Shown here piece by piece: positions 29,384 through 58,506 of a DNA stretch of 64,000 nucleotides. The DNA lies in assembly GCF_900112045.1 (NCBI RefSeq), contig NZ_FOJW01000002.1:69962-133961 (forward strand), given 5' to 3'. Both the position numbers and the translations under genes were made by a program. Below the pieces are notes generated by a model that was not told the origin of the DNA, did not search any database, and was given only the letters and a program-made list of their open reading frames with translations. Each line of letters begins with the position of its first letter. The first letter of the stretch is position 1. Source of the DNA: Lentibacillus halodurans (GTDB lineage: Bacteria > Bacillota > Bacilli > Bacillales > Amphibacillaceae).

Positions 29384-29507
29384 TCCGATTCTGTTCGGGC
29401 CTGCACGAAGCAGGTCACAAAGGCGTTGCAACAGGTCGTTGCGTTCTTAGCCTTTGTTCCTTTTCATCTGTGGGGAAAAGCGCCCGCTGGATGAAGTTTC
29501 ACTTTAC
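29383..29507 (+). repeat. Dispersed palindromic repeat, copy 5 (long form)
   Basis: Starts GTCCGATTCTGTTC, then a module AAAGGCGTTGCAACAGG..CTTAGCCTTT (a hairpin of its own), then CATCTGTGGGG/CGCCCGCTGGATG and the tail AAGTTTCACTTTA. It ends five bases before the GGGAGG ribosome site of addA, so it fills the whole addB-addA gap. Confidence 0.8.
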
Positions 29508-37736: not shown

Positions 37737-38933
37737 TTATCCATTTAATACCTCTTTAATGCGTACAATGGCCCAGTCAAGATCTTCTTTCTCAATAATC
37801 AGTGGTGGGGCAAAGCGGATGACGTTTTCATGTGTTTCCTTGCACAGCAGACCTTTTTCTTTCAATTCTTCACAATAAGGTCTTGCTGCTTCAGTCATTT
37901 CAACACCAATGAACAATCCTTTGCCGCGCACCTCTTTAATGCTCGGGTTGTTGATTTTCTTAAGTTCTTCCATCATGTAGCTGCCGAGTTCCAGCGATCG
38001 GTCAGCCAAATTTTCTTCCTCCAGCACTTCAAGCGAAGCCGTTGAGACTGCAGATGCCAGCGGATTGCCCCCAAAAGTTGATCCGTGTGATCCAGGGTTG
38101 AAAACACCGAGAATGTCTTTATTGGCAACAACACAGGAAATGGGGAACACACCTCCGCCTAGTGCTTTACCTAAAATCAGGACATCCGGTGTGACATCTT
38201 CCCAGTCACAAGCAAACATTTTACCGGTACGCCCGAGTCCTGCCTGAATTTCATCAGCCATATATAATACTTTGTTTTCAGCGCAAACGTCATATGCCTC
38301 TTTCAAAAATCCATCAGGCGGCATGATGATACCCGCTTCACCTTGGATTGGTTCGAATAAAAAGCCTGCTGTGTTTTCATTAATGGCTTCTTTTAATGCA
38401 TCAATATCCCCGTATGGTATTGTTTTGATACCAGGAAGCAAGGGACCAAATCCTCGCTGATATTCCGTTTCCGATGACAAGGACACGGCTGTCATGGTAC
38501 GTCCATGGAAATTGCCCTCAGCAGCGATGATTTCGGCTTTGCCTTCCGGGATGCCTTTGACATCATATGCCCAGCGGCGGGCTGCCTTTATGGCTGTTTC
38601 AACTGCTTCTGCGCCAGTATTCATTGGGAGTGTCATTTCTTTGTTGGTCAGTTTGCACACTTTTTCATACCATGGACCGAGCTGATCATTGTGAAACGCC
38701 CGTGAGGTAAGGGTTACAGCGTCTGCCTGCTTTTTAAGTGCATTGATGATTTTTGGGTGACGGTGCCCCTGATTAACGGCGGAATAGGCACTCAGCATAT
38801 CCATGTACCGGTTGCCCTCCGGATCCTCAACCCATACACCTTCCGCTTTAGCTATTACAACAGGAAGCGGATGATAGTTTTTCGCACCATATTCCTGTGT
38901 CTGATCGATAATTTCCTGACTTGTTTTTGCCAT
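37737..38933 (-). CDS. rocD: Ornithine aminotransferase RocD
   Basis: A 398-residue class III PLP aminotransferase. [12 protein letters not shown] (105-116), D227 ([14 protein letters not shown]) and the PLP Lys K256 ([10 protein letters not shown]) are present. It converts ornithine and 2-oxoglutarate to glutamate semialdehyde and glutamate, giving arginine breakdown or proline synthesis. It stands alone rather than in a roc operon. Confidence 0.93.
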
Positions 38934-39102: not shown

Positions 39103-39468
39103 ATGAATACACATTTGCACGTAACCTCATGGGTGCTGGCATTTATTCTTTTCGTTGTTGTGATTGTACTCAATAAATCGGGTAATGCAAAAGCTGCTAA
39201 AATTGTTCAAATGATTCTCCGGCTGGACTATTTACTGATTTTATATTCCGGCGGCGAATTGCTTGCGGCCTATTTTAACGGTCCGCAAATGGGGGAAGCA
39301 ATCATTAAAGGATTGGCAGGCATCTGGGTGATTTTTGCAATGGAAAATATCAGCTTAAAATCAGGCAGGAATGAGCCGACAAAAAGCTGGTGGATTCAGC
39401 TTGCCATTGCCGTTCTTCTGACGCTGATTTTAGGCTTCGGCCGGTTGGGCTTCGGATTTTTGCCATAA
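39103..39468 (+). CDS. yisL: YisL-family membrane protein
   Basis: A 121-residue protein with four membrane helices and the UPF0344/DUF1516 pattern: N-terminal MNTHLHVTSWVLAFILF and MILRLDYLLILYSGGEL. Function unknown. AAGGAGG upstream. In B. subtilis yisL also follows the gerP region. Confidence 0.88.
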   Translation: MNTHLHVTSWVLAFILFVVVIVLNKSGNAKAAKIVQMILRLDYLLILYSGGELLAAYFNGPQMGEAIIKGLAGIWVIFAMENISLKSGRNEPTKSWWIQLAIAVLLTLILGFGRLGFGFLP

Positions 39469-39785
39469 GCTTTAGCGGGCTTCGGGACTTCCTGTTGTGG
39501 GGGAGTCCTTTTTCATGCTTGTTCGGTTCAGGCAACCTACACGAATGGTTCAAAAATGAATATCGAGTATGAGCCTTCTTTTATATCTACAATCGAAAGA
39601 AAGCATAAAAAAGGGGGGACAGGATTTTTTAAATACGTGCCGTGCCCCTTTTTACACGCCGGCTTTGATTATAACAGTAGAAAGTATGATGAAGTATTTT
39701 GGACAAATTTGCTTTTTTCATTGACTACAGGTATACGTGGTTAATAATAGGAAAGGGAAGATATTACAAATGAAGGAGAACACAT
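39469..39785. other. Intergenic region with two hairpins
   Basis: GGACTTCC/GGGAGTCC followed by TTTTT (39489-39513) is the probable yisL terminator. A second hairpin pairs AAAAAGGGG (39608-39616) with CCCCTTTTT (39645-39653) across a 28-base loop. The promoter of the next gene should be near 39700-39760. No gene seen. Confidence 0.55.
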
Positions 39786-41282
39786 ATGAAGCGCCTATTC
39801 TTTATAATACTGCTTATGTCACTATTTCCCGGTTTTTCACAAGTGGTGTCGGCAGCTGAACATGAAACAGCCATAAATGGTGAAATCATATACGATATAT
39901 TGGTTGATCGTTTTAACAATGGTGATACGTCACTGGATGCACAGGTAGACCTGGATGATCCGCTCGCTTATCATGGAGGTGATTTACAGGGGATTACCGA
40001 TCAACTAGATCATTTACAGGAATTGGGCTATACAACGCTCGTTTTATCACCAATTATGGAAAACGCTCCTGATGGCTATCACGGGTATTGGATTGAGAAT
40101 TTTTATGAAGTGGACGAGCAATTCGGAACAATGGAAGATTTGCAAAGGCTGGTGGAAGAAGCACATAAACGTAATATGAAAATTGTACTTGAATTCGTGA
40201 CGAACTATGTTTCCAGCACGCACATGATGGTGGAAGATCCTGGTAAGCATGATTGGATTAAGGAAAACAATCATGCACAGTCTTTCCAATGGCTGGATCA
40301 AACGGCTGTGCTGGATCAGTCCAATCCGGATGTACAGCATTTCATAAAGGATGTAGCAGATTTTTGGATTGAGGAAGCGGATATAGATGGTTATAAGTTT
40401 CACGCCGCTGATCAGGTCAATCAGGCATTTTTAGACGAATTAACAGCACATATTCGCGGAAATAATCCGGAATTCTATCTATTAGGCCATATTTTGGATG
40501 ATGAAGCGTATACCGGTGATCTTACCGAAAACACGTCCATCCAGGCGGTGAAAAATCATGCACTCTACACACCTATGACGAATGTGTTTGCCAAGGCAGG
40601 CACGCCAATAACGCAGATTTATGAAAAATCGCAAAATAATGGTTTAGAAGGATTAAATTATCTGGACAATCCATACAAAGAACGGTTTACCCAAAAACTG
40701 CTGGAAAATGGAAGAACCCCATTAACGACGTGGAAGCTGGCATTAACCTATTTATATACCGCCCCTGGTATTCCCATGATTTATCAGGGATCGGAAATCC
40801 CAATGGGTGGTGGGGAATTCCCCGATAATCAGCAGTTAGTGGAATGGAACAGTGCAGATGAAGATCTGGAACAATTCATTAACCGAATTTCTGCCCTCCG
40901 ATCTGAATTTCCGCCATTACAGCATGGGGACTATGAATTGTTGGGTTCCAGTGGTGCCATGAGTTTATTCAAGCGATCCTATGACGGTGAGTCCGTTTAT
41001 ATTGCCATTAATAACGACACGGAATCGCAAGTCATACCAATTGATGGAATTGAATTGGATCAACAGTTGAAAGGGTTGCTTGGTGATAACCTTGTACGGG
41101 CGAATGGAGACGGACAATTCAATATAGGACTCCCTCGGGAGACTGCTGAGGTATATGTTGTTCAGGAGGATACTGGTCTGAACTGGATGGTGATTTCACC
41201 AATCGCCGGAACCATGATCGTGTTTATTCTGGGCATAATGTATTTAACCAGAAAACAAAAAAAGCGGGAAGCAGATGCGTAA
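39786..41282 (+). CDS. Membrane-anchored GH13 alpha-amylase-fold protein lacking catalytic residues
   Basis: 498 residues: signal peptide (about 1-23, ending VSAA), a GH13 TIM-barrel (YDILVDRFNNGD, YHGGDLQGI, LSPI) with a beta-domain at the C-terminus, then a membrane anchor (about 468-487) and basic tail. Every GH13 signature is altered. Region I (D-x-x-x-N-H) reads VLEFVTNY (E136, Y141). The nucleophile Asp in region II is H206 and the Arg is K204 (DGYKFH). The acid/base Glu is H235 (LLGHILDD). The region IV N-H-D is N295-P-Y297. The frame is intact and codon use looks normal. So it is probably an exported sugar-binding or scaffold pseudoenzyme, not a hydrolase. A single gene; GGAGAACACAT precedes the start. 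Confidence 0.85.
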   Translation: MKRLFFIILLMSLFPGFSQVVSAAEHETAINGEIIYDILVDRFNNGDTSLDAQVDLDDPLAYHGGDLQGITDQLDHLQELGYTTLVLSPIMENAPDGYHGYWIENFYEVDEQFGTMEDLQRLVEEAHKRNMKIVLEFVTNYVSSTHMMVEDPGKHDWIKENNHAQSFQWLDQTAVLDQSNPDVQHFIKDVADFWIEEADIDGYKFHAADQVNQAFLDELTAHIRGNNPEFYLLGHILDDEAYTGDLTENTSIQAVKNHALYTPMTNVFAKAGTPITQIYEKSQNNGLEGLNYLDNPYKERFTQKLLENGRTPLTTWKLALTYLYTAPGIPMIYQGSEIPMGGGEFPDNQQLVEWNSADEDLEQFINRISALRSEFPPLQHGDYELLGSSGAMSLFKRSYDGESVYIAINNDTESQVIPIDGIELDQQLKGLLGDNLVRANGDGQFNIGLPRETAEVYVVQEDTGLNWMVISPIAGTMIVFILGIMYLTRKQKKREADA

Positions 41283-41757: not shown

Positions 41758-42618
41758 TTACTTATAATCCTTATTTAAAAAGAAAAGGGCAAGTGTTCCT
41801 GGACCGGCATGTGCGCCGATGGTTGCGCCGACCATTTCGATCAGAATATCGTCTGTTTTGAATTTCGCTTTGATTAATGCTGCCATTTTTTGTGCTGTTT
41901 CGACATCATCACCATGACTGATGCCAATTGTCTGGCTGGAAAAGTCGGTACCGCGCTCTTCCATTATGTCGAGCATTCGGTTCAGCAGCTTTTTGGAGCC
42001 ACGTATTTTTTCAAGCGGAACCAGTTTACCATCTTCAACATGAAGTATCGGCTTGATTTTAAGAAATGAACCGACAAATGCAGCGGTTTTGCTGACGCGT
42101 CCGCCGCGGTAAAGATATTCAAGGTCATCGACGGTAAAAATATGTTCCATGTTTCTTGCATGATATCCTGCTGTTTCAACGATTTCATCACTGTCTGCTC
42201 CTTTTTTGGCAAGCTGGGCAGCGCGAAGTACAACAAGCCCGTATCCAATTGATGCACACTTTGTATCAATAACGTGAAGGTCAGCTCCCGGATATGCTTC
42301 CTTTACTTCCTGTTCCATCATTTTGGCGGTCTGGTATGTACCTGACAGTTCTGAAGAGAAAGCAAGATACACTAAGGGTTGATTTGCTTGTGCATAGGAT
42401 GTAAAAATAGCTTTAAAGGATTGCGGTGATACTTGGGATGTTTTGGGGCTCTTTCCTTCCCGCATGGCGTCATAGACTGTTTTTGGCTTGATATCGATAC
42501 TGTCTTTGAATTCCTCATCCCCCAGATGAACCGTTAATGGTACCATTTCTATGTCATATGTTTTATAATGATCTTCGGACAAATCACATGCTGAATCTGC
42601 AAGGATTTTAATCGTCAT
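41758..42618 (-). CDS. DegV-family fatty-acid-binding protein
   Basis: A 286-residue DegV (FakB-like) protein: DSACDLSEDHYKTYDI and PLTV at the N-terminus, TSQVSP loop, SSELSGTYQTA, and GATIGAHAGPGTLALFF at the end. FakB proteins bind an acyl chain for phosphorylation by FakA. ATG 42618 preferred because the in-frame GTG at 42627 overlaps the AGGTG site. Confidence 0.9.
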   Translation of the reverse strand: MTIKILADSACDLSEDHYKTYDIEMVPLTVHLGDEEFKDSIDIKPKTVYDAMREGKSPKTSQVSPQSFKAIFTSYAQANQPLVYLAFSSELSGTYQTAKMMEQEVKEAYPGADLHVIDTKCASIGYGLVVLRAAQLAKKGADSDEIVETAGYHARNMEHIFTVDDLEYLYRGGRVSKTAAFVGSFLKIKPILHVEDGKLVPLEKIRGSKKLLNRMLDIMEERGTDFSSQTIGISHGDDVETAQKMAALIKAKFKTDDILIEMVGATIGAHAGPGTLALFFLNKDYK

Positions 42619-42737
42619 TTTTTTCACCTACATTCGCTGAAATTATTATTTTTCCCGGTGTAATCGTCCGTAGAACTCCCATCACAGGAACAAAAGGGTA
42701 AATCAAATAAGTTCAAGTGGGAGTTAACGCTAACACC

Positions 42738-42800: not shown

Positions 42801-42879
42801 TTTAGTTTAAAGCTATAAAGGCGAATAGTCAAAAAATAATGATAAAAAATAACCATGTGTGCTAAAAAGGAGGGGTTCT

Positions 42880-43722
42880 GTGTTTTTAGTAGAAGCCAGG
42901 CGGATCGTTATTGTCATATTTGGTGCTGTACTGAATGCTTTGTCGCTGAACTTTTTCCTGATTTCAGCAAATGTGTATGCGAGTGGGTTTACAGGTGCAG
43001 CACAGCTCTTTGCCAGTATATTTAATGATTTTCTGGGTATTGGTTTATCAACTGGTATTATTTTATTTGTATTGAATATTCCAGTTGCCATATTGGGCTG
43101 GTATAAGGTTGGCAAAGGTTTTACCATTTACAGTGTCGTGTCTGTTGCGTTTACAACAATTTTCCTGGAAGTATTGCCTGTTGTGGCGCTTTCTGAAGAT
43201 ATTATTTTAAATGCTGTTTTTGGCGGTGTTCTCGCCGGCACAGGTGTCGGTGTTACACTAAAGCATGGTGCGTCAACCGGCGGGATGGATATTGTCGCAA
43301 TGGTATTATCCCGGATGAAAGACAGACCGATCGGGACGTACTTTTTGACATTGAATGCCGTTATTATTGCGATGGCCGGTATTCTATATGAACCGGAAAA
43401 CGCATTGTACACATTATTGACACTGTATGTGACGACTCGTGTGATTGATGCTCTTCACACACGCCATGAAAAAGTAACCGCTATGATCATTACACACAAG
43501 GCCGAAGAACTGCAAAAGGCGATCCACGATACAATGGTTCGTGGAATTACCATTCTTCCGGCAAAGGGGGCTTACACAAGGGATGATAAAAGCATGATGT
43601 ACCTTGTTGTTACTCGTTATGAGCTTTATGATCTTGAACGAATTATCGGTGAAGTGGATCCGAATGCATTTACGAATATTGTACAGACAACAGGCATATT
43701 CGGATATTTCAGAAGGGATTAA
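42880..43722 (+). CDS. yitT: YitT-family membrane protein
   Basis: 280 residues: five or six membrane helices (about 8-170; GASTGGMDIVAMVLSR is a family motif) and a C-terminal DUF2179 domain (VTAMIITHKAEELQKAIHDT). Function unknown. GTG 42880 has AAAAGGAGG six bases upstream, better than the in-frame GTG at 42859. Start of the yitT..yitW stretch conserved with B. subtilis. Confidence 0.87.
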   Translation: MFLVEARRIVIVIFGAVLNALSLNFFLISANVYASGFTGAAQLFASIFNDFLGIGLSTGIILFVLNIPVAILGWYKVGKGFTIYSVVSVAFTTIFLEVLPVVALSEDIILNAVFGGVLAGTGVGVTLKHGASTGGMDIVAMVLSRMKDRPIGTYFLTLNAVIIAMAGILYEPENALYTLLTLYVTTRVIDALHTRHEKVTAMIITHKAEELQKAIHDTMVRGITILPAKGAYTRDDKSMMYLVVTRYELYDLERIIGEVDPNAFTNIVQTTGIFGYFRRD

Positions 43723-57274: not shown

Positions 57275-58276
<1,002 letters not shown>

Positions 58277-58297: not shown

Positions 58298-58506
58298 AAA
58301 GATCCATTAATCCCATTCAAAAGGGACGAATGAACCGCGGTGCCACCCTATTTATCATGTCTGATAGTACATGATCTCTTTTGGCAAAAAGCTCCAAAGC
58401 CCAATTCCAATTTACCATAGTGCTTGTTTTCACCGGCCACAAGCTCTCTAAAGTTCTAGAGGGTAATTGTACTTTAACTCCATCATAGCTTTTATTCCTA
58501 TTTATT
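58298..58506 (-). promoter_or_regulatory. T-box riboswitch controlling trpS
   Basis: The minus-strand leader carries the AGAGAGCTTGTGG and GGTGAAAACAAGC features, an AATTGGAATTGG stretch with UGG as the likely Trp specifier, the T-box GGTGGCACCGCGG (about 58337-58349), and a terminator pairing GGTTCATT with AATGGATC, extended by GTCCC/GGGAT, then TTTTTT. Promoter: TTGAAT (58536-58541), 17 bases, TATGAT (58513-58518). The structure is read directly; the specifier position is inferred. Confidence 0.93.

Follow-up and report, generated by a model that had tools for sequence, protein, structure and literature searches.

Altered catalytic positions have been reported before among GH13_45 proteins. 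In the passages of Sarian et al. (2017; PMC5347038) that were available, BmaN1 is reported to be active with Lys, Glu and His at the three catalytic positions, i.e., with two of them changed and the Glu acid/base kept, and seven relatives near BaqA (Nos 28-34) are described in which the whole triad is substituted without obvious regularity. Those passages give no gene context, selection or function for Nos 28-34, and in the open-licence literature no papers on synteny or selection of aberrant GH13_45 proteins were found. A later paper, likewise seen in excerpts, places the aberrant enzymes in GH13_45 (PMC11239784), and, like the protein described here, BmaN1 has a membrane-spanning C-terminal helix according to excerpts of another (PMC11448133). 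A membrane-tethered, GH13-fold ectodomain is also found in the SLC3 heavy chains 4F2hc and rBAT, for which the part of the source consulted gives a non-catalytic role in transporter stability and trafficking (PMC8537225).

The window, i.e., the whole stretch of 64,000 nucleotides from Lentibacillus halodurans that was analysed, contains at 39786-41282 (+) a gene for a membrane-anchored, GH13_45-derived protein of 498 amino acids that is presumably catalytically dead, and that is called here, for short, the dead protein. Since triad-substituted proteins have been known since 2017 (PMC5347038, as far as the passages at hand go), what is new here is the scale, the synteny with missing transporter genes, the repeated loss of catalysis and the evidence of selection. 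Compared with the preliminary description of this DNA, the link to the missing transporters, the repeated losses and the existence of an earlier published account of such proteins are additions.

The window protein and its catalytic positions

The gene is a single uninterrupted frame of 498 codons, and its product consists, in this order, of a signal peptide, an alpha-amylase barrel, domain C, a single C-terminal membrane helix and a basic tail (all coordinates in this section refer to the forward strand). The signal peptide (residues 1-23; 39786-39854) has its hydropathy peak from residue 4 onwards and a putative cleavage site, read by eye, near VSA-AE. Domains A and B, forming the (beta/alpha)8 barrel (residues 30-380; 39873-40925), are recognised by Pfam, by the AlphaFold model and by Foldseek, and domain C (residues 381-457; 40926-41156) coincides with a match to PF22026; the barrel itself matches Alpha-amylase PF00128 in two stretches with 153.8 bits. 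The membrane helix (residues 468-489; 41187-41252), supported by AlphaFold and hydropathy, is preceded by a GxNW motif and followed by KQKKRE. In a 19-residue hydropathy scan the top six windows all fall within residues 4-23 or 467-488, and the maximum between residues 30 and 460 is far below these terminal peaks. The AlphaFold model, computed from an alignment of 62 sequences (the window protein and public genome records), has a mean pLDDT of 90.9 and a pTM of 0.87, shows a helix at 467-497, and finds in Foldseek its best solved match in the Anoxybacillus amylase 5a2c, with a TM-score of 0.92 by target length. The protein thus has the GH13 fold, a (beta/alpha)8 barrel with domain C, by both Pfam families, the model and the 5a2c match, and the intact frame, signal peptide, barrel and C-terminal anchor of the preliminary description are all confirmed. 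The number of cysteines is zero.

The catalytic residues present a different picture. When the window protein is aligned with 5a2b and 4e2o, two solved GH13_45 enzymes to which it is 43% and 40% identical, their Asp/Glu/Asp triad corresponds to His206 at the nucleophile position (40401-40403), His235 at the acid/base position (40488-40490) and Tyr297 in region IV, where the canonical N-H-D is replaced by N295-P296-Y297 (40668-40676); region I ends in N140-Y141 (40203-40208) in place of N-H. These are the positions that had been read from the sequence beforehand, so the possibility that a corrected alignment would place the catalytic residues elsewhere did not materialise. The hallmarks of the subfamily are affected too: the LPDlx motif of region V is missing, with TAVLDQSNP aligned to LPDLAQENP, and of the two adjacent Trp residues in helix alpha3 W194 alone is kept (ADFWIEE vs AKWWIQE). 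The nearest kin, by best PDB hits and by trees, are nevertheless enzymes of the BaqA/GTA type.

Orthologues, repeated loss of catalysis and selection

Some GH13 match is present in all 159 family genomes searched, and an orthologue of the window gene, according to our reading of the hit table, in 132 of them, 27 being without it. These genomes yield a set of 133 aberrant sequences (many of the residue counts below cover the first 103), which form one clade with support of 1.0 in one tree and, for 21 sampled members, of 100 in another; the closest named relative of the window protein is from Lentibacillus kapialis (65%). The full triad occurs in 0 of the 133, none of its residues being present in 124 and one residue in 9, so that the change in the window copy is not due to chance or to a sequencing error, and simple decay of this copy alone among normal orthologues, the other outcome considered at the outset, is not what is found. 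The expectation that the H206/H235/N-P-Y set would be conserved failed: position 206 is His in 83, Tyr in 28 and Gln in 10 of the 133, position 235 is Asp in 99 and His in the window copy only, and position 297 is Tyr in 35. Because His235 is confined to the window copy, a metal site formed by His206 and His235, as had been speculated, is unlikely as a family function and was dropped.

The first 103 orthologues are split into clade A, with 86 sequences including the window protein, and clade B, with 17. In clade A several pocket residues are conserved (E136 in 78/86, Y141 in 79/86, H206 in 74/86, D209 in 79/86), with positions 296 and 297 free to vary, and clade B has different pocket residues, with His206 in 1/17 and Tyr in 12/17. 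The residues around the anchor are constant throughout: G464, N466, W467 and F480 are invariant in the first 103 sequences, and GxNW precedes the membrane helix in 132 of the 133, the exception being a split copy. As the GxN part is common to many active enzymes, the anchor is inherited and not new. Frames shorter than 470 amino acids are limited to 2 of the 133, a split copy (L390, genome G022) and a fragment at a contig edge (L389). In another genome (G150) a second copy, L107, is broken into two frames. More divergent aberrant relatives were also seen (L351-L357, from G333, G188, G322, G181, G237, G176 and G254, respectively), several of them gapped near regions I and V, which retain domain C and mostly GxN ahead of the membrane helix.

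Catalysis has been lost more than once. A tree of 88 rows, built without the signature columns, requires several changes between active and aberrant, and the topology test rejects a tree that unites the 48 sampled aberrant rows (p-AU 5e-5). Uniting the main clade with nine Neobacillus-type rows is compatible with the test (p 0.1), and five Halobacillus-type rows already join the main clade in the tree, without starred support. The clearest recent loss is that of the aberrant L228, which adjoins the active L224 with support of 99. At least two losses are therefore supported by these trees, and three or more are likely.

The proposed dN/dS comparison was carried out on pairs with dS between 0.1 and 1.3 (35 aberrant and 37 active), beside a separate set of 18 chosen pairs; medians are given because the pairs overlap and some are near saturation. 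The active sets exclude L201, L202, L203, L207, L208, L211 and L212 (in residue and pocket comparisons L209 as well), and the broken copy L107, the partial frames L245 and L249 and the repeat loci L214-L218 were also left out. For the whole gene the median is 0.108 in aberrant vs 0.036 in active pairs (means 0.164 vs 0.039), for the barrel 0.123 vs 0.029, for the linker, membrane helix and tail 0.107 vs 0.046, and for domain C 0.067 vs 0.059 (means 0.142 vs 0.058). The dead gene is thus under purifying selection, with a barrel that is relaxed, yet far from neutral, and a domain C whose constraint is roughly kept, close to that of the active enzymes. When barrel identity was matched, domain C appeared even tighter than in active enzymes, an effect that was discarded since it is gone when scaled by dS. 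The preliminary view, in which all catalytic positions are gone from an undamaged frame under selection, is hence partly upheld, by the family-wide triad loss, the intact frames and the purifying selection, and not in its two further elements, the conserved residue set and the two-His metal site.

Genomic setting and upstream elements

The window gene is flanked upstream by rocD, for ornithine aminotransferase (37737-38933, -), and yisL (DUF1516; 39103-39468, +), and downstream by a degV family gene (41758-42627, -) and a yitT family gene (42859-43722, +), all of them conserved neighbours. Within the stretches fetched around 20 aberrant genes from 20 genera, yisL is found in 20, rocD in 16, degV in 12 and yitT in 10, and malE, malF and malG in none. 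Many of the intact-triad relatives (in Rossellomorea, Sutcliffiella, Jeotgalibacillus, Fictibacillus and others) lie within a maltodextrin-type cluster composed of a GH13_20-type amylase, a MalE-like binding protein, MalF- and MalG-like permeases, the GH13_45 amylase and a LacI-type regulator, and in several genera, e.g., in Rossellomorea aquimaris (L160), this cluster is directly upstream of degV and yitT. The names MalE and MalF rest on similarity below the curated NCBIfam cut-offs and MalG denotes a general permease family; the MalE-like protein has its top score, likewise below cut-off, with a galactooligosaccharide binding protein. In a table of 110 non-identical loci, picked by similarity and by ourselves and containing relatives that are not independent (the Fisher p ignores kinship and was not used), at least two of the malE/F/G-like genes accompany 43 of 45 intact-triad loci, and 64 of 65 aberrant loci are without such a pair. 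Six loci (L202, L203, L207, L208, L211, L212) and identical proteins were left out of this table, and L201, in which the His of region IV is absent, was counted as intact by its three catalytic columns. Either yisL or degV is in the fetched flank of 59 of the 64 transporter-less aberrant loci and of 17 of the 43 intact loci, the remaining 26 of the latter being elsewhere or of unresolved position.

Two sister loci are intermediates between the active, clustered gene and the dead, lone one: L342 (G246) keeps the triad and the LacI-type regulator with malEFG absent, and in L341 (G274) both of these are missing. At 5 of the 64 aberrant loci there is still a gene for a regulator or a GH13_20-type protein. 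The reverse combination was observed in L350 (G190), where an aberrant GH13_45 gene (D/D/D, region IV R-Y-D) is accompanied by the full set of mal genes. At least six family genomes carry an intact-triad GH13_45 gene alongside the aberrant one, and the extra intact genes with a fetched neighbourhood (L180, L360) are accompanied by mal genes. PF02903, the N-domain taken as a marker of GH13_20, is missing from 8 of the 12 genomes of the genus, including that of the window, and all 12 have the dead gene; it is present in 92 of 155 family genomes, 76 of which also carry the dead gene. For this reason a genome-wide loss of maltodextrin use is not supported as the cause, and it is more appropriate to speak of loss from the locus, since in many of these genomes the cluster may simply have been relocated. 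The genome of the window encodes one other GH13 protein and seven SBP_bac_8-type binding proteins, and no match to glycogen phosphorylase was found in it.

A terminator-like hairpin follows yisL (39484-39509, +), which suggests separate transcription units, and a sigma-A-like promoter (TTGACT-16-AATAAT; 39721-39748, +) is predicted 65 nt ahead of the start codon, so the dead gene seems to be a transcription unit of its own. At 13 nt before the -35 box lies an element (39690-39707, +) for which the relatives have the consensus TGAAnnATTTTCRACAAW, with GG for CR in the window copy. As promoter-like matches are common in the shuffled window, the evidence is the conservation among relatives: the loose promoter pattern occurs in 62 of 103 upstream regions, and 28 of these 62 also have the strict element, from which the window copy deviates; all 28 are in clade A. 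When up to one mismatch is allowed, the full pattern is found at the dead gene only, in 11 of 12 genus genomes, and the short box at 70 sites in the 12 genomes, vs 22 for the reversed control, 11 of the 70 being at the dead gene. Sites beyond the dead gene are therefore in excess, and the short box may have a wider regulon; among 14 other sites read, 11 fall within larger open frames, and the other 3 (L312, L333, L340) precede a gene. Sites for Spo0A, PhoP, WalR, GlnR, CodY and Fur were considered for the upstream element and none was kept.

Between yisL and the dead gene, one locus (L142) contains genes of an iron-siderophore transporter (identified in a family search as a binding protein and FecCD permeases) and a flavin reductase; L130 has the same kind of insert, its flavin reductase being read by eye, and in L114 and L134 a similar one is probable from gene lengths and order. 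These genes are taken as insertions because at L005 the gene that lies behind them still has a promoter that follows the common pattern. Elsewhere in the window there are two matches to the Rfam Bacillaceae-1 RNA (29400-29466 and 1157-1222, both -) and a T-box leader (58319-58495, -) just upstream of a gene at 57275-58270 (-), which we take to encode tryptophanyl-tRNA synthetase.

Interpretation and comparison with known systems

The reading that we favour, with a probability of roughly 0.55, is that the window gene encodes a non-hydrolytic, membrane-tethered surface protein left from a maltodextrin cluster, which putatively holds a partner or a ligand. The ancestor would have been an alpha-amylase of GH13_45, anchored on the outside of the membrane and encoded beside MalE-, MalF- and MalG-like genes upstream of degV-yitT. 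In the lineage of the window the transporter genes would have vanished from the locus, the amylase gene remaining there under a promoter of its own, and the catalytic residues of the retained amylase would then have been replaced, all three of them, an order of events that we infer. The product would be exported, fold as barrel and domain C, held by one C-terminal helix, and would not hydrolyse starch by the GH13 mechanism, and its ectodomain and membrane-near part may bind either another protein or a ligand such as a sugar or a wall component. As BmaN1, with two changed positions, is reported to be active in the passages of PMC5347038, the inactivity of the window protein is no more than presumed. 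Since separate lineages have kept the dead protein, the second role probably predates the loss of catalysis and was already present in the active enzyme. Of the points on which this reading rests, computation shows the fold, the anchor, the lost triad, the recurrence of that loss, the synteny and the purifying selection. Several observations count against this reading: no partner or ligand was found for the dead protein, whose conserved neighbours look like housekeeping genes; the gene is absent from 27 of the 159 genomes and L350 is aberrant within a complete mal cluster; the seven SBP_bac_8-type proteins and the 76 of 92 PF02903-positive genomes with the dead gene fit it poorly; and the dN/dS of the barrel and of the linker and membrane helix is two to four times that of active enzymes.

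A serious rival, which we nonetheless consider rather unlikely, is a glycan sensor or binder whose old cleft binds maltodextrin, exopolysaccharide or wall glycan without cutting. The cleft does keep H99 and R300 in 103/103 sequences and an aromatic residue at 101 in 100/103, clade A shows a conserved remodelling of the pocket on its beta3/beta4 side, and the sites that clade A has fixed differently from active enzymes are enriched on the catalytic face (7/12, p 0.003, for a face of 85 of 428 positions that we defined post hoc; stricter cut-offs give 5/8 and 4/5). By contrast, the canonical sugar-contact positions 204, 206, 296 and 297 are changed or variable, the pockets of clades A and B are unlike each other, and in other aberrant lineages the mean identity of the pocket shell is just 0.18-0.19. 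That the pocket of clade A has been partly remodelled and then fixed also fits a ligand or a new chemistry there. Residual or new catalysis, in which E136, H206, D209 and D235 would make up an alternative active site that might bind metal, as has been claimed in another version for BmaN1, could draw on the 43 of 86 clade A sequences that have this E/H/D/D set and on the activity reported, in the excerpts of PMC5347038, with Lys and His at two catalytic positions; it is improbable, given that the window copy has His for D235, that clade B is without E136 and mostly without H206, and that BmaN1 keeps its Glu acid/base, whereas the window protein keeps none of the three.

We are about equally sceptical of slow decay, i.e., of a functionless gene on its way out. 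The median barrel dN/dS, four times that of active enzymes, the broken second copy in G150, the split copy in G022 and the genomes that lack the gene are all compatible with it, but a whole-gene median of about 0.1, short frames in L390 and L389 alone, the conservation of domain C and of the residues at the anchor, and the retention of a promoter in many relatives speak for maintenance. The label "alpha-amylase", usual for such a fold, is probably wrong for a large group, and the absence or presence of transporter genes next door offers a simple genomic predictor of dead vs active members. At a single locus, working enzymes, an intermediate and dead proteins also make up a natural series, from which one can trace whether the cluster or catalysis was lost first, and it leads to the testable claim that an industrially studied type of amylase has a hidden second function.

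Among known systems, the closest are the GH13_45 amylases of the BaqA/GTA/ASKA type (PDB 4e2o, 5a2a-c), with which the window protein shares the fold, the domain order, the signal peptide, about 40-43% identity and, in the related genes read, the C-terminal membrane helix; in some genera (L160 of Rossellomorea aquimaris) the active gene also occupies the same spot upstream of degV-yitT. Unlike them, the window protein lacks the three catalytic residues, the LPDlx motif and the Trp pair, and its gene has no adjacent transporter genes and a predicted promoter of its own. BmaN1, compared here by its description in the passages available, is likewise GH13_45-like with altered catalytic positions and has Glu for Asp at the start of region I, but the pattern of its group (Lys, Glu kept, His) differs from the His/His/Tyr of the window protein; its reported activity now stands among relatives in which members without the catalytic residues are common. 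The window protein fits the text on the second group of Sarian et al. (2017), again by description, and its position in the trees is compatible with that text; it may be kin of Nos 28-34.

SLC3 heavy chains have an N-terminal membrane helix and type II topology. In the account of them consulted, 4F2hc and rBAT resemble the window protein in their membrane-tethered, GH13-fold ectodomain. They have, however, an N-terminal part before the helix, where the window protein has a signal peptide and a C-terminal helix, they are vertebrate proteins linked covalently to SLC7 transporters, whereas the window protein has no cysteine, and human rBAT retains the triad that the window protein lacks. With the helix at the other end and no cysteine for the disulfide link, membership in SLC3 is ruled out. 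We take the membrane-near half to be the constant part of the surface protein, in a mode that would resemble 4F2hc. It is a tentative idea, somewhat doubtful as it stands, that GH13_45 amylases have a second, non-catalytic job at the surface that predates the loss of catalysis, and that an amylase left behind when Bacillaceae and their relatives lose the cluster from this locus loses its triad and is kept for that job, as an independently evolved bacterial counterpart of the 4F2hc type of dead-amylase partner.
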